Part shown: positions 28,467 through 44,842 of the stretch, in pieces | Layout: each line of letters opens with the position of its first letter | Numbering within the stretch: the first letter of the stretch is position 1 | From: Carnobacterium pleistocenium FTR1 | GTDB lineage: Bacteria > Bacillota > Bacilli > Lactobacillales > Carnobacteriaceae | Reading direction: 5' to 3' | NCBI RefSeq assembly: GCF_000744285.1 | Contig: NZ_JQLQ01000002.1 | Span: 620,001-684,000, forward strand | Length of the DNA: 64,000 nucleotides | Translations under genes and position numbers: made by a program | Notes under the pieces: generated by a model | What the model was told of the DNA's origin: nothing | Database searches by the model: none | The model's input: only the letters and a program-made list of their open reading frames with translations

Positions 28467-30017
28467 ATGATTACAGATTTAGCAAATGTTGAAAAAATGG
28501 TGGTATTAGATTTTGGAAGTCAATACAACCAACTCATTACAAGACGTATCCGTGAATTCGGAGTGTACTCTGAATTGCTTTCTCATAAAGTAACAGCTGA
28601 AGAATTAAAAGCAATGAACGTTAAAGGAATCATCTTTTCTGGTGGTCCGATGAGCGTCTATGATGAAGGCTCTTTTTCTGTCGATCCTGAAATTTTTAAC
28701 ATGGGGATTCCTATTTTAGGTATTTGTTACGGAATGCAACTAATGACAACTGCATTAGGCGGAAAAGTCGCAGGCAGTGAAAATAGAGAATATGGTAAAG
28801 CTAGCATTACGATCAATGATCAAAAAGCACCTTTATTTAATTCATTAGCTAAAGATGAAACGGTTTGGATGAGCCATGGAGATTTAGTTACACAAGTGCC
28901 AGAAGGTTTTGTGGTTTCTGCAACGAGTCCACATTGTCCGATTGCGTCAATGTTTAATCCACAAAAGAATTTCCATGCCGTTCAATTTCACCCTGAAGTA
29001 CGTCATTCAGAACATGGAAATGAAATGCTAAAAAACTTTACCTTTGATGTCTGTGAATGTGAAGGAAACTGGAGTATTGCTGATTTTATCGATTCAGAAA
29101 CAGCAAAAATCCGTGAAACAGTTGGCGATAGAAGAGTATTGCTTGGCTTATCAGGCGGAGTAGACTCAAGTGTCGTAGGTGTGCTTTTACAAAAAGCTAT
29201 CGGCGATCAATTGACGTGTATCTTTGTCGACCATGGTCTATTGCGTAAAGGCGAAAGCGAACAAGTAATGGAAAGCCTAGTTGGTAAGTTTGGCTTGAAT
29301 ATTATTCGTGTCGATGCAAAAGAACGTTTTATGGCTAAATTAAGTGGCGTTAGTGATCCAGAGCAAAAACGGAAAATCATTGGTAATGAATTTGTCTATC
29401 TCTTTGATGATGAAGCAACGAAGCTTAAAGGCGTTGATTTCTTAGCACAAGGAACCCTTTACACTGATGTGATTGAAAGTGGAACAGACACTGCTCAAAT
29501 GATCAAATCACACCACAATGTCGGTGGACTTCCTGATGACATGCAATTCAAATTGATTGAACCGTTAAATACGTTATTTAAAGATGAAGTTCGTGAATTA
29601 GGAATCCAATTAGGAATGCCTGAAAGCCTTGTCTGGCGTCAACCATTCCCAGGCCCTGGTCTAGGAATTCGTGTTATTGGCGAAATAACAGAAGAAAAAT
29701 TAGAAATCGTGCGCGATAGCGACTTTATTCTAAGAGAAGAAATTGCAGCTGCCGGTCTTGACCGTGACATCTGGCAATATTTCACCGTTCTTCCTGGTTT
29801 CCGCAGCGTCGGAGTAATGGGAGATGGCCGTACGTATGACTACACTATTGGAATTCGTGCCGTTACATCTATTGATGGTATGACAAGTGACTTTGCCCGC
29901 ATTCCTTGGGATGTCTTGCAAAAAATCTCTGTCCGTATCGTAAATGAAGTAAAACACGTTAACCGAATCGTGTATGACATTACCAGCAAGCCACCATCAA
30001 CTATTGAGTGGGAATAA
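28467..30017 (+). CDS. guaA: GMP synthase (glutamine-hydrolysing)
   Basis: 516 residues. The class I amidotransferase has [10 protein letters not shown] with the nucleophile Cys and [11 protein letters not shown]. The ATP-pyrophosphatase loop is [16 protein letters not shown]; the GMPS dimer domain ends PPSTIEWE. The start at 28467 has GGGGTGG upstream; the ATG at 28449 has none. The last five codons form the attachment core of the island, so the gene stays intact after insertion. Confidence 0.96.
30003..30017 (+). other. Attachment site, left copy (attL core)
   Basis: ATTGAGTGGGAATAA, the last four sense codons and stop of guaA, repeated exactly at 44828-44842. Confidence 0.85.
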
Positions 30018-30098: not shown

Positions 30099-31169
30099 CT
30101 ATTTTTTGTGTAATTCTTCAAGTTTTGAAGCCACTTCATTTTGTTTGTTTGGATATAGATGAGAATAAACAGAAAGGGTAGTTTCTACTTTTTCATGTCC
30201 AAGTCTTTCTGCAATTAATAAAGGTGAAAAGCCCAATTCAATTAAATAAGATGCATGTGAATGTCTTAAATCGTGGACGCGTATTTTTTTAACTCCTGAA
30301 TGTTTACATCCACGTTTCATTTCATGCCATAAATAATATTTAGTTGTTGGAAATAAGCGCTGGTTAGGTTCATAATCGTATAATTTACCAACATAGTTTT
30401 TTATAATTTCAGCAAGAAAATCTGGTATATTAATAATCCGTTTGCTTTTTGGGGTTTTTGGTTCCAATACCAAATCTTCACCATTCAATCTGGAAAAATT
30501 TTTATTAACTGAAACAGATTTTACCTCACCTTCTAAAATGAAATCATTTAGAGTTAATGCTAATAATTCACCTGAACGCATACCAGTCCAGAAGAGTAAT
30601 TCAAAAATAACTTTGGATGTAGGCTTACTTTCTACAATAGCTATAAATCTTTCAAATTCATCAACAGTCCAAAATTGCATTGAATCAGCATTCTTTTTAC
30701 CCATACTTCCACACTTTGCAGCTGGATTTTCAGTTAGATTATAATATTTTACTGCATAATTGAAAATAGCAGACAGTTGATTGTGAATCGTTTTCAAATA
30801 CGTTTGACTATAATTATTCTCGTCATCTATCAACTTATTTTGCCATGTTCTAACTGTAGTTACAGATATCGTATTCAATGGCATTTTTCCGAAATATGGA
30901 AGGATTTTATTGTTGATGATATATTGTTTATTATTGAAAGTTGTAGGTTTTAATCTAGTTTTTGAATCCTCATAGTAATATTCTATTAAATTAGAAAATG
31001 ATATATCCACATCCGCTTTAACTTTGTTCAAAAATTTCCGTTCAAATTCTTTTGCTTCACGTTGAGTTTTGAATCCTTCTTTTTTCTTTTGTTTGGTTTC
31101 ACCTTGCCAATCTTTGTAATTAAATTTCGTGAACCAATTTCCTTTTGTTTTATTTTTATAAACAGGCAT
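30099..31169 (-). CDS. int: Tyrosine recombinase/integrase of the island
   Basis: 356 residues. An N-terminal arm-binding region (1-55) is followed by a SAM-like core-binding domain (about 60-155) and the catalytic domain. Catalytic residues: Arg near 198 (TGMRSGELL), His299 and Arg302 (HDLRHSH), His325 (LGHEKVETTLS) and Tyr335 (VYSH). It integrates and excises the island at guaA. Its 3' end lies 82 bases from attL, the usual place. AGAAGGGA before the ATG. Confidence 0.94.
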   Translation of the reverse strand: MPVYKNKTKGNWFTKFNYKDWQGETKQKKKEGFKTQREAKEFERKFLNKVKADVDISFSNLIEYYYEDSKTRLKPTTFNNKQYIINNKILPYFGKMPLNTISVTTVRTWQNKLIDDENNYSQTYLKTIHNQLSAIFNYAVKYYNLTENPAAKCGSMGKKNADSMQFWTVDEFERFIAIVESKPTSKVIFELLFWTGMRSGELLALTLNDFILEGEVKSVSVNKNFSRLNGEDLVLEPKTPKSKRIINIPDFLAEIIKNYVGKLYDYEPNQRLFPTTKYYLWHEMKRGCKHSGVKKIRVHDLRHSHASYLIELGFSPLLIAERLGHEKVETTLSVYSHLYPNKQNEVASKLEELHKK

Positions 31170-31948: not shown

Positions 31949-32365
31949 TTAACTTCCTTTCTTTTTTTTATTTATCAGTTTTACCATTTCATAAGTAACA
32001 TTCAATGAACTCCTTAATAATTCCTTTTTTTCATCATCTAAGGCTTCCCCGTCAAACAGTAAGGTATGATTATCTGATTTTAACTGACTCACAATAAATT
32101 TCATCAATAATCCAACATCGGAATTAAAGTAATGGTCAAACTGTTCATATTTTTTGACCTCAATAGCCAATTTGTAAACTAGTTCACCTGGATCAACTTT
32201 TAAACCATCTGCAATCTTGTTTATAGTTTCCAGTGTTGGATTAGATTGTTCACCAGACTCCAATTTACTTATCATACTAAAACTTAAACCAGTTAATTCG
32301 GCCAACTCACGTTGGTTTATTTTTTTCTCTTTTCTGATACGCTTCAAATTTTCACGAAAATACAT
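31949..32365 (-). CDS. XRE-family repressor, CI/Stl-like
   Basis: 138 residues. N-terminal helix-turn-helix INQRELAELTGLSFSMISKLESGE (17-40), then a helical C-terminal region without a LexA-type protease. Short, protease-free repressors are usual in satellites that are freed by a helper protein rather than by RecA. It is read leftwards from the shared operator region. AGGAGG before the ATG. Confidence 0.8.
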   Translation of the reverse strand: MYFRENLKRIRKEKKINQRELAELTGLSFSMISKLESGEQSNPTLETINKIADGLKVDPGELVYKLAIEVKKYEQFDHYFNSDVGLLMKFIVSQLKSDNHTLLFDGEALDDEKKELLRSSLNVTYEMVKLINKKKKGS

Positions 32366-32526: not shown

Positions 32527-32730
32527 ATGAATATCAATCTTAAAGTTGCAAGAGTAAAGAAAAATCTTACACAAAAGGACCTCGCAAAAAAAGTAGGTGT
32601 AACAAATAAATATCTATCACAAATTGAAAATGGAGTTTCGAATAATCCAAGTAATGATTTGATGATTAGGTTGGCGAAAGAACTTGGTTGTTCTGTGCAA
32701 GAACTATTTTTTGAAGGCGTAAATAAATGA
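32527..32730 (+). CDS. Cro-like XRE regulator
   Basis: 67 residues, almost only a helix-turn-helix: LTQKDLAKKVGVTNKYLSQIENGV (13-36). First gene of the rightward operon, opposite the repressor. AGAGGTG before the ATG. Confidence 0.8.
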   Translation: MNINLKVARVKKNLTQKDLAKKVGVTNKYLSQIENGVSNNPSNDLMIRLAKELGCSVQELFFEGVNK

Positions 32731-33487: not shown

Positions 33488-35407
33488 TTGTTTTATAAGG
33501 GGTACATCATAATAAAAAATAAAAAGTCAATAGAAAAAATAAAAGGGAGAGACGAGTTCAAAACCTTTGAACAAGTTCAATCTCTACCTGATTATGCTGG
33601 AATATTGGCAAATGAAACGATTCTAATTGATGTTGATAATTATGAACAATCAGAAATATTGATGGATATTGTTGAAAATAAGCAGCTACGTTGTCGAGTT
33701 TATGAAACAACAAGAGGGAAACATTTTCTTTTTAAAAAACCAGATGAGATTGAACATAATCGAACTGATGCAACGTTAGCAGTAGGGATAAAAGCGGATA
33801 TTAAATTGGGTTCCAAAAATAGTTATGAGGTATTAAAACATAACGGAATTGGAAGAGAAATCATTTATGATTTGTTTGATTATGAAGAATCTGAAGTAGC
33901 TCCAAAATGGATGTTTCCAATGCAAAAAGAGTCCGATTTCTTTTCACTTGGTGAAGGTGATGGGAGAAATCAAACTCTATTCAACTACATTTTAACGCTT
34001 CAAAGTGAAGGATTTACCAAAGAAGAATCCAAAGAAACAATTAACCTTATTAATAAGTATATTATATCACAACCACTTGATGAAAGTGAGTTGGAAGTCA
34101 TTTTAAGAGATGGTGCCTTTCAAAAAGAACTATTTTTTAAGAAGAATCAGTTTTTGTTTGATAAATTTGCAGTGTTCCTTAAAAACAATGCACATGTAAA
34201 ACGAATTAGTGATCAACTTCATATATACCAGGATGGTATTTATACTCAAAACCGTGCAAGAATTGAAGGTGAGATGGTAAAACACATTCCTATTTTGGCA
34301 AATGCCAAAAGAAAGGAAGTTATGAGCTACTTAGAAATTATCAATCCAGAAAATGAAAAGGTAAGTTCACCCGAATATATTCTATTCAGAAATGGTGTTT
34401 TGAATATTCAAACGAGTGAACTGACTGCTTTTAGCCCAGAATATATCATAACGAATCAAGTACCATGGGATTACAACCCAAATGCTTATGACGAAATAAC
34501 AGATCAGACATTGAATAAAATGGCCTGTAACGATCCGGCTATTCGCTACTTATTAGAGGAGTTAGCAGGATATACTTTATATAGAAGAAATGAATTGGGT
34601 AAAGCCTTCATTTTAACTGGTGAAAAATCAAATGGGAAATCAACTTTTATTGATGTTTTGAAAAATATGCTTGGTGAAAAAAATACTGTTTCATTGGACT
34701 TGAATGAATTAGGTGAGCGGTTCAAAACGGCTGAACTTTACGGAAAACTTGCTAACATTGGTGATGATATTGAATCAGAATTTATAAAGAACACGGGCAT
34801 ATTTAAGAAACTAGTGACAGGTGAGCGATTGAATGCAGAAAGAAAAGGACAAGATCCATTCGATTTTAACAATTATTCTAAAATGATTTTCAGTGCTAAT
34901 AACATTCCCAGGCTTGGTGGTGGTAAAGACACTGCAGCAATCGCAAGAAGATTAGTTATTATTCCATTTGATGCAAAATTCAGTTCTGATGATTCCGATT
35001 TTGACCCTTACATCAAGGATAAGTTAATTACACAACGAGCAATGGAATACTTAATCAAAATTGCAATCGAAGGATTAAAACGGGTCCTAGATAATAATAA
35101 ATTTACGACCTCAAAGCGAATTAATAAAGAAGTGCGAGAATATGAGTTGAGTAATGACCCGTTATTAGGATTCATACAACATTGTGAAGATGAAGAAATG
35201 AATATCATTCATGAAGTACTGGATGATGTTTACCTCAGGTACACGATTTATTGCAGTGATGGGAATTATGGAACACTATCAAGAAATGAATTCTCAAAAC
35301 AAATTCAAAAACATTTGAATATAACGACAATCCAGAAGCGAATGGCTGATTACGGCGGCAAACAAAAACGGATTTTCATACCGATTGATACAACTGAAAC
35401 GACTTAA
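33488..35407 (+). CDS. Primase-helicase for island replication
   Basis: 639 residues. The N-terminal 150 have a primase/polymerase-like core (ILIDVDN near residue 45, TTRGKHFLFK near 73). A PriCT-like helical region follows (about 155-220), then a D5-type region and an SF3 helicase: Walker A GEKSNGKST (about 378), Walker B ANIGDDIE (about 422) and sensor FSANNIPRL. A winged-helix end follows. TTG start after AAAAGGGTG. It is the replication protein typical of phage satellites; a gene-free AT-rich stretch right behind it is the likely origin. Confidence 0.85.
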   Translation: MFYKGYIIIKNKKSIEKIKGRDEFKTFEQVQSLPDYAGILANETILIDVDNYEQSEILMDIVENKQLRCRVYETTRGKHFLFKKPDEIEHNRTDATLAVGIKADIKLGSKNSYEVLKHNGIGREIIYDLFDYEESEVAPKWMFPMQKESDFFSLGEGDGRNQTLFNYILTLQSEGFTKEESKETINLINKYIISQPLDESELEVILRDGAFQKELFFKKNQFLFDKFAVFLKNNAHVKRISDQLHIYQDGIYTQNRARIEGEMVKHIPILANAKRKEVMSYLEIINPENEKVSSPEYILFRNGVLNIQTSELTAFSPEYIITNQVPWDYNPNAYDEITDQTLNKMACNDPAIRYLLEELAGYTLYRRNELGKAFILTGEKSNGKSTFIDVLKNMLGEKNTVSLDLNELGERFKTAELYGKLANIGDDIESEFIKNTGIFKKLVTGERLNAERKGQDPFDFNNYSKMIFSANNIPRLGGGKDTAAIARRLVIIPFDAKFSSDDSDFDPYIKDKLITQRAMEYLIKIAIEGLKRVLDNNKFTTSKRINKEVREYELSNDPLLGFIQHCEDEEMNIIHEVLDDVYLRYTIYCSDGNYGTLSRNEFSKQIQKHLNITTIQKRMADYGGKQKRIFIPIDTTETT

Positions 35408-35755
35408 TTAAGAAGCTGTTTCACTCTTCAAACATTACTATATCAAGTGTTCAAGATGGTGAAACGACTGACACGGCTCAATATGAGTTCTTAATTAAAA
35501 GATAAGATAAATATCCTATTTATTACTTATATATACTAAATAATATAAGAATAGGGAAAAGCCGGCTCAGCTGTAACACTTAATAAATAAAAGTACTTTG
35601 AATCATTGATATGAGTGAGTTTTCAGGGTGTGACAGCTTAATTTTTTCAATAGTTTATAAACGACAAAAAAAATACACCACTCTCTCCTACCAAAGTTCG
35701 AGTGATGTATTTCGATTAAGCAGTGCACTTGATATATAAAAACAAATAAGGAGTG
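35408..35755. other. Probable replication origin of the island
   Basis: About 350 bases without a gene right behind the primase-helicase. It has AGCTGTAACAC (35568) facing GTGTGACAGCT (35628), an AT-only core with CCTATT facing AATAGG (about 35515-35557), and TGAAACGACT twice (about 35396 and 35462). Satellites keep their origin just after the replication gene. No experiment-free proof is possible. Confidence 0.5.
35664..35720 (-). terminator. Leftward terminator in the origin region
   Basis: On the minus strand AAATACATCACTC pairs with GAGTGGTGTATTT, then TTTTT. It would stop leftward transcription entering the origin region. Confidence 0.55.
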
Positions 35756-35761
35756 AATGAA

Positions 35762-36115
35762 ATGAACGGAAAAGAATTCTTAGAATTTTATGATCAAATT
35801 GAAGAGATTAAAAATATTGAATGGCTAGTTACAGATGAATACGATTTAAGTAAAGGTGAAAATGGGATGAGTGTTATATTTACGATTGATGACAAACAAC
35901 TCACATTAGATTATCCGAACCCAACACTTCCATTTGAAAAACGGGAAATGAATTACGTAGCCATTGTTATGTTGGTGAATAGGTGTATTCGTCAGTTGAC
36001 AGGTCATGACTCGCTAATGATGAGCATACACGGTAATGGTGTGACAGCTGGAAGTACTATTTCATCAACAATCAATTATGCTCGCCACCTTTTAAGAGAA
36101 AAACGAGGTGAATGA
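35762..36115 (+). CDS. Unknown island protein
   Basis: 117 residues, acidic N-terminus, mixed alpha/beta by pattern, no known motif. AAGGAG precedes the ATG at 35762. Overlaps the Mor-like gene by four bases, so the two are coupled. Confidence 0.55.
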   Translation: MNGKEFLEFYDQIEEIKNIEWLVTDEYDLSKGENGMSVIFTIDDKQLTLDYPNPTLPFEKREMNYVAIVMLVNRCIRQLTGHDSLMMSIHGNGVTAGSTISSTINYARHLLREKRGE

Positions 36116-36387
36116 ATTTGGTTTCTATTGCTCACGACTATGTTATTGAAGTTATTGGTGAAGATAAATTTAACGAACTATGTGAGAAATACGCTGGTCA
36201 TACTCTCTATTTCCCAAAGAAAAGGAATCCATTCAACACTACTAATGAACGTAATGAATGGATATTTAAGGCCTTTATGAGTGGAAGAGGGTACGAATTC
36301 ATTGCAAATGAGGTAGGTTTACAACGAGATACGGTTATTAGAATCATAAAAGAGTGTACGAAAACAAAAAAAGAATCCTTGAAATGA
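36112..36387 (+). CDS. Mor-family transcription activator
   Basis: 91 residues matching the Mor pattern: IEVIGEDKFNELCEKYAGHTLYFPKK, a short dimer segment with the conserved GxxLYxPK, then a helix-turn-helix GYEFIANEVGLQRDTVIRIIK. Mor proteins switch on phage promoters with poor -35 elements. The promoter before terS, 78 bases downstream, has an extended -10 and no clear -35. Confidence 0.75.
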   Translation: MNLVSIAHDYVIEVIGEDKFNELCEKYAGHTLYFPKKRNPFNTTNERNEWIFKAFMSGRGYEFIANEVGLQRDTVIRIIKECTKTKKESLK

Positions 36388-36401
36388 GGGTTCTTTTTTT
36401 A
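36368..36401 (+). terminator. Terminator of the early operon
   Basis: AAAGAATCCTT pairs with AGGGTTCTTT, then T residues. It overlaps the last codons of the Mor-like gene and separates the early genes from terS. Confidence 0.7.
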
Positions 36402-36439
36402 GTCGGAAAATGTTTATAAAATCCGAGGAACCTTGTTAA

Positions 36440-36472
36440 ATCAACATTTAAAGTGAGGTTATTGATATAATT
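36440..36472 (+). promoter_or_regulatory. Promoter of terS and the late island genes
   Basis: TTGATATAAT (36462-36471) is an extended -10; the -35 region (ACATTT) is poor. This is what an activator-dependent promoter looks like, and a Mor-type gene lies just upstream. Confidence 0.55.
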
Positions 36473-36517
36473 AAGGTATGAAATATTAATGATTGAACGA
36501 GAAAGAGAGGTGAAACC

Positions 36518-36946
36518 ATGGTTAAATTGACTTTAAAGCAGCAACGTTTTGTAGATGAATATCTTATTACAGGAAACGCAACGGACTCGGCTATTGTTGC
36601 CGGATATAGTAAAAAATATGCTGGTCAGAATGCAGATAAATTACTAAAAAATACTAAAATCAAAACCTATATAGATGAACGATTGAAGGAACTCGGAGAT
36701 GAGAAAATCGCCAAACAAGAAGAGATTTTGCAATATCTAACATCAATTATGCGCGGTGAACAAACAGAACAAATTTTACGCGGTATGGGTGAGGGATACC
36801 AACAACTCATTGATATTGAAGTAGGAGCAAAAGACCGCATCAAAGCAGCAGAACTATTAGGTAAGCGTTACGGAATGTGGACCGATAAAGTTGATATCTT
36901 TGGTGAAGTAGTATTTATTACTGGAGATGATGAAATTGAAGAATAG
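36518..36946 (+). CDS. terS: Terminase small subunit
   Basis: 142 residues. The N-terminal DNA-binding helix set LTLKQQRFVDEYLITGNATDSAIVAGYSKKYAG is the terminase_2/TerS family signature; helical oligomerisation follows and the tail is acidic. TerS recognises the packaging site and hands DNA to the large subunit. No terL exists in the island, so it must use a helper phage's large terminase, as in pac-type satellites. AGAGGTG before the ATG. Confidence 0.88.
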   Translation: MVKLTLKQQRFVDEYLITGNATDSAIVAGYSKKYAGQNADKLLKNTKIKTYIDERLKELGDEKIAKQEEILQYLTSIMRGEQTEQILRGMGEGYQQLIDIEVGAKDRIKAAELLGKRYGMWTDKVDIFGEVVFITGDDEIEE

Positions 36947-38761: not shown

Positions 38762-39256
38762 TTGATCTCAGACGAAGATTTGATTTCACAATACTTTTAT
38801 TTACACAAAAGAATTGAAACAACCAAGAAAAGAATGCAGTGGTATGAAAATAATTTTTGGAGTAAAAATCTTTATACATCTATTCAGGAAAGAGACGGGA
38901 AATTGATAACAAACGCATTCGATATTGAAAATCAAGTAATCAGTTACCTTTCCACAGTAGTGAGTGCAGAAGAACATCTTTTGTTATTGAAATTCAAGTA
39001 TGAACACTTTATGCGTTACCTGGACAAGTTATCCAGTAATAAAAGATACTACTTAGTTCAACGATATAAATACAATGAAAATGTTATCAATGATGAGTTA
39101 GATAATGAAATTATGGATGAAGTATCTGAAATTGAAACAGCGGTTCACTTTCGATTTGAATCAACTATTGAAGAGGAAAAAGTGGATTCAAACATACTAG
39201 ATGAAGATCCACAAGAGTATTTTAAAAAGATGATGGAGTTGATCAGTGTTGAATAA
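38762..39256 (+). CDS. Unknown acidic island protein
   Basis: 164 residues, acidic, with KRYYLVQRYKYNENVINDEL near 95-114 that recalls the helix preceding the DNA-binding end of ArpU/RinA-type phage regulators. No clear helix-turn-helix follows. TTG start after AAGGTGG. Overlaps the next gene by eleven bases. Confidence 0.5.
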   Translation: MISDEDLISQYFYLHKRIETTKKRMQWYENNFWSKNLYTSIQERDGKLITNAFDIENQVISYLSTVVSAEEHLLLLKFKYEHFMRYLDKLSSNKRYYLVQRYKYNENVINDELDNEIMDEVSEIETAVHFRFESTIEEEKVDSNILDEDPQEYFKKMMELISVE

Positions 39257-39923
39257 AAAATACTCGTATGCGATTAACTTGCTTGGAAATTGGAAGCTGT
39301 ATTCTGAACGAATGGATGATGAGGACGAAGAAAATTTAAAAATACTTTTTGCTGGATTAAAAACTTTAGCTAAAAATGAAAGAGATTTAGTATGGAATAT
39401 TTATTATTTAGAAAGAACAACGCATGAAGACTTAACTAAAAATCATTCTATTTCTCTTACGGAATTTAGAAAAAAACATACAGCTATTTTGGATAAAATG
39501 ACAAAAGCTATTAAAGACAAAGAAGAGAAAGAAAGAATATTAACTGAAGAGTTAATGAGTGAAGCTAAATTCTACTTACTTAGATTTCAAATTTTGAGAG
39601 CTGCTACTTTACAAGACAGAATTAAAGTGCTAACTGAATTGGAAAAATATCCGTGGACGGTAAAATCTCCCCTTAATAAAATTATTTTGGGCGGAGATAC
39701 AACACGAGATAGAATCGAAGTTTTAACTGAGTGTGTAGAATGTCTATCTAAAGTGAAATATCCCATTGATAGAATCATTTTGAGAGGTAGATACAGTATG
39801 AATAAATCTTGGGATGAAATTGGTCGCATTGTGGGATTAAGTGGAAAACAAATGTCGAGAAAAGAAGAACATGCGTTGATAGAATTCGGGAAAATATTAC
39901 GTCAAGAAAAAGAAGGTAATTAA
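39246..39923 (+). CDS. Sigma-70-region-4-like regulator, ArpU-type
   Basis: 225 residues. The C-terminal end RGRYSMNKSWDEIGRIVGLS then GKQMSRKEEHALIEFG reads as a sigma-4-type helix-turn-helix, the pattern of late phage regulators ArpU and RinA. An internal duplication (DRIKVLTELEKYPWTVKSPL and DRIEVLTECVECLSKVKYPI, with NKIILGG and DRIILRG) is visible. GTG start overlapping the previous gene. Could control the tail-gene part. Confidence 0.6.
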   Translation: MLNKKYSYAINLLGNWKLYSERMDDEDEENLKILFAGLKTLAKNERDLVWNIYYLERTTHEDLTKNHSISLTEFRKKHTAILDKMTKAIKDKEEKERILTEELMSEAKFYLLRFQILRAATLQDRIKVLTELEKYPWTVKSPLNKIILGGDTTRDRIEVLTECVECLSKVKYPIDRIILRGRYSMNKSWDEIGRIVGLSGKQMSRKEEHALIEFGKILRQEKEGN

Positions 39924-39924
39924 T

Positions 39925-40371
39925 GTGAATCAAAATATTGAAGTGATAAATGAAAATCTATGGTTGGTTAATTTTCACTATATTGATCAAGGATATATTC
40001 CTGAGTTGAAAGATGTAAGTAGAAATCACACTGATTATAAAATCATTACCAAAGAAGGAACCTTGATATTAGACAAGGGCTACAAAGAAGGTTCTGAACT
40101 AGTTCCAATTTTCAGTTACGTGATGAACCTTGATGATAAACGTTTAAAGGAAAACCAAGCTTTTAAATCATTTTTAGCCGAAAGTAATCCTAAAATAGCA
40201 AACTGGGATGAAAAACTAATGGATACCTATATTGGTTACCATCATTTAGAAGCAGCATTAAAAATGTTCAATGAAATTTCCGTGCTTGAGCAAACTAGAC
40301 GAAAAGTAAAAAAAGAGTATAAAAACAGTCCAAAATCATTCGTTAGAAAGCTTTTCAATAGGAAAGGGTGA
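39925..40371 (+). CDS. Unknown protein, possible tail assembly chaperone (first of pair)
   Basis: 148 residues with a basic C-terminus. Its end ALKMFNEISVLEQTRRKVKK aligns with AECVFNHLCTFELKRRRLVK of the next protein, so the two look paralogous. In siphophages the two genes before the tape measure make tail chaperones (gpG/gpGT). Position suggests that role; no sequence match supports it. GTG start. Confidence 0.5.
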   Translation: MNQNIEVINENLWLVNFHYIDQGYIPELKDVSRNHTDYKIITKEGTLILDKGYKEGSELVPIFSYVMNLDDKRLKENQAFKSFLAESNPKIANWDEKLMDTYIGYHHLEAALKMFNEISVLEQTRRKVKKEYKNSPKSFVRKLFNRKG

Positions 40372-44827: not shown

Positions 44828-44842
44828 ATTGAGTGGGAATAA
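44828..44842 (+). other. Attachment site, right copy (attR core)
   Basis: Exact copy of the guaA 3' end ATTGAGTGGGAATAA; marks the right border of the island. Confidence 0.85.

Follow-up and report, generated by a model that had tools for sequence, protein, structure and literature searches.

A Mor-type activator gene stands before the terS promoter in a family of phage satellites and may act as their own late switch

The window, meaning the whole 64,000-nucleotide stretch of Carnobacterium pleistocenium FTR1 DNA that was analyzed (34% G+C), contains a 14.8 kb phage satellite of PICI-like build inserted in the end of guaA (Table 1). The assignment follows from an integrase, att repeats, divergent regulators, a primase and terS, all within about 15 kb. 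Twenty island proteins were scanned against Pfam and PHROGs, other short ORFs lying outside the scan; no capsid, portal or large terminase family is among the matches listed for these 20 proteins, nor are the P4-like satellite genes psu, sid and delta, and the capsid-forming genes that define cf-PICIs are absent from the scanned set. No Rfam family was found in the island. Mor and the tape measure protein (TMP) are each present in one copy in the genome. From g185 (37221) onward the genes are close-packed, and the largest break is a 274-nt gap 3' of terS, where a second promoter is possible.

Table 1. Features of the island, with window coordinates.
Feature	Position	Strand	Evidence or remark
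att repeat at guaA 3' end (ATTGAGTGGGAATAA)	30003..30017	none	15-bp exact repeat
Tyrosine integrase	30099..31169	-	PF00589 E 1.1e-21, phrog_1
CI-like repressor	31949..32365	-	HTH_3 E 7.3e-17
Cro-like regulator	32527..32730	+	HTH_3 E 3e-18
D5-type primase/helicase	33488..35407	+	phrog_864 E 1.5e-192
118-aa protein, overlapping Mor start	35759..36115	+	no Pfam/PHROG family at or above cut-off
Mor-type transcription activator	36112..36387	+	PF08765 E 7.2e-8, above cut-off; phrog_836/532; family profile vs Mu Mor 1rr7 E 0.0021
Terminator hairpin, mor end	36366..36400	+	-17.6 kcal/mol, z -4.5
Candidate dyad TTAAAT-CAAC-ATTTAA, centre -34.5	36436..36451	none	estimated no better than chance
Extended -10 of terS promoter; predicted start ~36478	36463..36471	+	TGATATAAT
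terS, small terminase subunit	36518..36946	+	Terminase_2 E 7.6e-35, phrog_51 E 4.5e-48
Sigma-region-4-like regulator	39246..39923	+	phrog_248 E 7.4e-8; Sigma70_r4 E 0.002, below cut-off
148-aa protein, N-terminal motif NIEVIN..LW.VN, adjoins TMP in satellite family	39925..40371	+	alignment and scan
Tape measure protein (TMP), 1143 aa	40773..44204	+	TMP_3 E 1.2e-46, phrog_1068 E 5.1e-209
att repeat, opposite island end	44828..44842	none	15-bp exact repeat

Identity of the TMP is 46% with that of another satellite, L098 (L numbers designate the loci and elements of the surveys below), and about 42%, along part of the protein, with that of the myophage phiC2. No second copy was found in the genome at E 1e-5, so the genome shows no sign of a resident helper whose TMP is close to this one. 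By analogy with PLE, the island TMP may let the satellite set the length of its tail or form a chimeric one. Behind the primase lies a non-coding stretch (35560-35715) in which positions 35671-35712 form an inverted repeat. The 12-bp sequence GGTGTGACAGCT stands at 35627 and again, unchanged, at 36038 (36038-36049), with an inverted partner at 35568; this repeat-bearing stretch is a candidate replication origin.

The gene directly ahead of terS, which the first-pass annotation of this DNA had called Mor-like, runs from an ATG at 36112 to a stop at 36385-36387 and encodes 91 amino acids. It belongs to the Pfam Mor family with 32.8 bits against a cut-off of 24.9, and it also matches two PHROG families of late transcriptional activators, phrog_836 (E 7.7e-7) and phrog_532 (E 4.5e-6). 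When a profile built from ten satellite Mor proteins was compared with solved structures, Mu Mor ranked first, and entries for Mu C were found at E 0.07-0.09. An AlphaFold2 model (pLDDT 86.8) searched with Foldseek placed Mu C bound to RNA polymerase (9l0x_I) at rank 1, with an E of only 0.093, and Mu Mor (1rr7) at rank 9; the structural match covers mainly Mor residues 42-91, and the Mu C alignment over 88 residues has an rmsd of 7.3. Identity to the nine other aligned Mor proteins is 21-31%. Among seven relatives compared with the Pfam cut-off, L224, L133 and L213 exceed it; L195, L189 and L190 fall below it and were joined to the family by the satellite Mor profile. The seventh, L200, encodes a truncated protein of 66 aa (L200:5184-5384) without the HTH half and without a Pfam match, and the next gene overlaps its end.

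The terminator at the end of mor and the promoter elements ahead of terS, proposed from the letters alone, are both present. None of 200 shuffles was as stable as the fold that contains the hairpin; the stem covers the last Mor codons, and the U-run belongs to the stem. The extended -10 is a perfect match, and the best -35 hexamer has one of six matches at spacers 16-18 and reaches four of six (TCAACA) at spacer 19 only. Across the whole window TGNTATAAT occurs at chance level (6 observed vs 5.98 expected), a rate from which ~0.006 occurrences are expected by chance on the plus strand within the 130-nt mor-terS gap. A generic promoter and terminator scan omits both sites because its rules demand a better -35 and an unpaired T-run, and the hairpin script used on the relatives, which also demands an unpaired T-run, likewise passes over this terminator. 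The suggested contrast with LexA control agrees with the sequence: the LexA-like box GAACNNNNGTTC (at most one mismatch) occurs at 20 places in the window and at none in the gap (36388-36517), and the island lacks the LexA box at the packaging operon that marks control of the SaPI operon I type. The sole dyad in the window's promoter region with arms of at least 5 and a spacer of up to 12 is TTAAAT-N4-ATTTAA, which by a rough estimate is probably a chance find. The dyad of the relatives described below, ACTAAATRTNGT-like, is absent from the window's terS promoter, and no relative is close enough for footprinting the window's own Mor site by sequence comparison.

To trace the family we surveyed phage, plasmid, genome and viral-contig collections. 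The window Mor sequence found no relatives in 50,697 phage records or 72,556 plasmid records and only itself in 18 genomes of the family and 395 of the order; one viral contig carries it, apparently the same element. Pfam Mor matches occur in 57 of the 395 order genomes, and among 30 order Mor loci (L004-L033, ~1.5 kb on each side, the window's own included) only the window's own adjoins homologues of other island proteins. A scan of IMG/VR with the window's terS gave 80 loci (the best 80 of 333), 63 of them with at least 1 kb upstream; the satellite Mor profile matched upstream of terS in three of these 63, namely the window's own contig, L094 and L098. An alignment search with the TMP gave 12 loci from genome contigs and 47 from IMG/VR, and in a marker scan of these 59 loci, 50 carry myophage tail genes, eight carry satellite genes (one being the window's own contig) and one is unclassed. 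Mor is present in all six satellite loci that cover the region, the window included, the other two of the eight being too short; it was found in none of the 50 myophage-tail loci within the stretch available, where early regions are mostly uncovered. When the 148-aa protein served as the query, L190, L192, L193, L195 and L200 came to light along with partial ones. In 397 genomes of one family (apparently Lachnospiraceae), Mor occurs at E 1e-9 or better in three, L212, L213 and L214, the last without satellite genes around it.

These surveys, together with a promoter scan described below, yielded ten distinct elements with an intact Mor apart from the window (L157, L189, L190, L153, L192, L133, L193, L195, L213 and L224) and an eleventh, L200, with the truncated one. 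L212 was merged with the L189 type, and L160 and L191 with the L192 type. The counts leave out L126-L128, where the HTH end alone matched; L214; L161, which was not classed; L158, L159, L194, L196, L197 and L199, where the region lies outside the available sequence; and L116, a match of a broad Mor profile whose seed already included it.

In the window and in all ten relatives with an intact Mor, mor stands directly before the terS operon. The arrangement of the window, HTH genes followed by primase, Mor, terS and TMP, is found again in L094 and L098, and the integrase gene is seen in L173 and L157, longer loci from these contigs; the L193 sequence ends before integrase and primase. A reduced build of integrase, primase, Mor, a terS-like gene, the 148-aa protein and TMP recurs across distinct elements. 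The gene next after mor encodes a Terminase_2 protein in the window, L157, L189 and L213; a short protein that weakly matches terS families in L190 (phrog_51, 6.2e-5) and L133 (phrog_2538, 3.1e-6); a homologue of the L190 protein in L153 (by eye; E 0.003 to a terS profile); and in L192 a protein with no family match that resembles, by eye, the second small protein of L157. A terS-like gene comes after one or two small genes in L193, L195 and L224, and is of half length in L224. The promoter thus stays in place although the gene that it precedes differs between elements. By eye, small proteins resembling the 118-aa protein are encoded upstream of Mor in L153, L190 and L213.

The kinship of the primases is different. 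The nearest to the window's are in nine loci, L036-L044 (56-59% identity), in which profiles found no Mor, TMP or 148-aa protein; among these loci, L036 has genes for terS and a portal. Identity between the window and L098 primases is about 38%, and the L098 and L094 primases are more distant than those of the Mor-less loci. Judged by these sequences, primase kinship would speak against the island having descended as one unit from a single ancestor.

The slot upstream of the 148-aa gene holds the sigma-like gene in the window (39246-39923, phrog_248), full sigma-70 factors (phrog_351) in L133 (L133:8181-9179), L213 (L213:8018-8986) and L200 (L200:7575-8450), and phrog_36 regulators in L157 and L153. 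A further virion part, an HK97-gp10-like tail-component protein (PF04883, E 3e-13 to 2.5e-12), is encoded at L193:4059-4550, L194:1007-1543 and L200:8668-9120. At L199:1-2642, the 148-aa protein and TMP follow a portal gene (PF05133) and one for a Mu-F-like head protein (PF04233); a relative with head genes thus exists, and the sigma-like and 148-aa markers occur beyond capsid-less elements too. The L189/L212 element has a DDE transposase gene (PF01609) between primase and Mor (L189:6040-6870).

The promoters behind mor were aligned for eight elements (L157, L189, L190, L153, L192, L133, L193 and L213), anchored on the -10; the 91% identity of the -10 itself is therefore by construction. The window stands outside this alignment, as it could not be aligned with the relatives; L224 was discovered later, L195 shows no -10 by the criteria used and is left out of the promoter counts, and L200 is outside the intact-Mor count. 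Mean pairwise identity among the eight is 62% from -13 to -24 (vs 40% shuffled), 68% from -37 to -60 (vs 43%) and 49% from -61 to -84 (vs 39%); from -25 to -36 there is little conservation (47% vs 40%), and beyond -85 none (33% vs 31%). CTAAAT, the left half of a ACTAAATRTNGT-like dyad, starts 41-42 bp upstream of the -10 in seven of the eight aligned elements and 42 bp upstream in L224, which makes eight elements in total, and a ninth, L133, has the variant ACAATATATTGT at the same place, measured from a -10 chosen by hand among five candidates. The dyad is perfect in L190 and L224 (TACTA-AATA-TAGTA) and in L193 (CACTA-AATG-TAGTG). Its summed symmetry of 31 of 40 pairs, with one base of slack, was reached by none of 1000 shuffles, and the value observed for four diverse sequences by 17 of 1000, figures whose significance the shuffles overstate since the sequences are related. 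Each of L157, L189, L190, L153 and L192 has a single occurrence of the 22-bp block when up to four mismatches are allowed. A palindrome near -42 in L192 was considered as a Mor site and rejected, the shared dyad being centred near -49. Presence of the dyad tracks the Mor subgroup, since it is missing from the two elements whose Mor proteins are more distant, the window and L195.

The relatives depart from the window in their -35 region. In seven of nine, the hexamer has four or five of six matches to TTGACA at spacer 16, a level of four being reached by ~15% of random positions, and the promoters of the relatives are therefore not free of a -35. Behind Mor, seven of the ten relatives tested have a terminator-like hairpin (z -3.3 or lower); in L192, L213 and L195 the script found no convincing one, though inspection by eye shows one in L192. 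A loop motif like ATATGACCGTTATATRAGGTCA is shared by hairpins behind Mor at L189:7328-7367 and in L190, L153, L192 and L195.

All of IMG/VR was also searched with a promoter pattern, TACTAAATRTNGTATN{28,29}TAKAAT, built from L189, L190, L153 and L192. Twelve contigs matched, six of which are contigs of the design elements. A seventh led to L224, a new satellite with integrase, Mor ending 34 bp before the match, a terS-like gene, the 148-aa protein and TMP; a chance match just behind a Mor gene is unlikely, although this is one case. The other five non-design contigs (four distinct sequences) are unrelated and have no Mor by profile.

Collectively, these observations support well a self-encoded Mor switch for a packaging and tail operon as the design of the family, and for the island itself we consider it reasonably probable that the satellite has its own late switch, with Mor activating the gene run from terS to TMP. 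Early transcription would pass through the primase and the 118-aa gene into mor and end at the hairpin in the mor end. Mor, probably as a dimer, would then bind just upstream of the terS promoter and recruit the host's main RNA polymerase to a -10 without a usable -35, and the run would be switched on as one operon, from terS, for packaging of the satellite's own DNA, through the sigma-like gene to TMP, a tail part of its own. The early-to-late switch proposed at first pass thus gains from the recurrence of Mor, promoter and terS in a satellite family and from the relatives' dyad at a fixed distance from the -10, and its original argument does not carry over, in that an extended -10 with a poor -35 is by itself no mark of activator dependence (PMC4390567). 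Counting against a Mor switch are the absence of the relatives' dyad from the window, the position of that dyad near -49 and not at -43.5, and the fair -35 of the relatives.

A simpler reading, which we regard as unlikely, is that terS has a common extended -10 promoter in need of no activator, the island being controlled by the CI/Cro-like pair or by copy number after replication, with Mor acting elsewhere or a relic. Extended -10 promoters are described as driving transcription without a -35 or an activator, so that a perfect TGnTATAAT can work alone (PMC4390567), the window has no dyad beyond chance, and L200 retains the gene order despite a Mor without its HTH half; but this reading leaves aside the position of mor directly before the terS operon throughout the elements with an intact Mor and the upstream dyad conserved at fixed spacing in the relatives. 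Less probable still is that a late activator of the helper phage drives the terS promoter, and that Mor acts mainly in trans on helper late genes, as P4 delta does in promoting late genes of both P2 and P4 (PMC8628076). The presence of the sigma-like gene within this run hints at additional late control and would suit such an arrangement, but none of the 12 contigs of the promoter scan (one pattern, one collection) is a recognized helper with this promoter, and the related myophage loci lack Mor in the stretches available, mostly short of the early regions.

A decayed prophage that kept its late activator beside terS by chance is very improbable. The phage-type integrase, repressor, terS and TMP, the missing head genes, and a primase nearer to Mor-less loci, including the one with terS and portal, than to L098 and L094 would fit such decay, yet the same reduced build recurs in distinct elements and the 15-bp att repeats are intact. 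The Mor-driven late switch remains our preferred reading. A wider version of it, in which an apparently undescribed Firmicutes satellite family times terS and TMP through a two-step self-encoded cascade, Mor and then a sigma-type factor from the same run, so that turning on packaging and chimeric tails would need no late activator from the helper and late transcription of the helper might itself be redirected, is speculative, and we think it rather doubtful.

The closest known parallel in protein terms is phage Mu, whose Mor and C are established activators (PMC4287176, PMC4390567) of the same family, PF08765, acting at Pm and at the late promoters respectively. As far as the cited accounts describe it, Pm has neither an extended -10 (PMC4287176) nor a -35 (PMC4287176, PMC4390567), and its dyad is centred at -43.5 (PMC4390567). 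The shared features are therefore the protein family, the lack of a -35 in Pm and, through the relatives, a dyad upstream of the -10. Unlike Mu, a transposing phage, the element here is a satellite, the window has the extended -10 that Pm is without, the relatives' dyad is centred near -49 and usually accompanied by a fair -35, and the genes controlled would be terS and TMP. A Mor-family gene in a mobile element of Firmicutes is also carried by phi13delta of Clostridia, which is described as a full Mu-like prophage with a transposase (PMC11318856). In SaPIs, as proposed for the island, a Gram-positive satellite has one operon of packaging function, SaPI operon I, and its packaging genes are reported to be under LexA (PMC5052747), whereas the island has a Mor gene and no LexA-like box in the gap. 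The tails that PLE satellites make contain a TMP of the satellite, that of PLE11 replacing the helper's in virions, and tmp genes are also described in other satellites, including cf-PICIs (PMC12987554). The island likewise has its own TMP, a likeness that concerns the presence of such a gene; PLEs are Vibrio elements, whereas here a primase, Mor and terS build with a myophage-related TMP occurs in a low-G+C Gram-positive bacterium, and unlike cf-PICIs the island has no capsid genes.

The delta protein of P4 is of the zinc-finger type, from another family than Mor. As an Ogr homologue encoded by a satellite and activating late genes (PMC8628076), it is nonetheless a precedent for what Mor would do here; delta acts on helper late genes too. 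The parts, namely Mu Mor and C, P4 delta and the PLE TMP, are known; their combination was not found in print, and no description of a Mor-controlled satellite family with terS and TMP was found in the open-licence literature.

Gram-positive satellites other than SaPIs are usually taken to depend on factors of their helpers. If the preferred reading is true, a Mor-type activator tied to terS and TMP would give such satellites their own late clock, Mor beside terS would be a marker for finding them, and the dyad of the relatives makes a binding test simple. Taken together, late control of this kind would be linked with the newly described building of chimeric tails by satellites.
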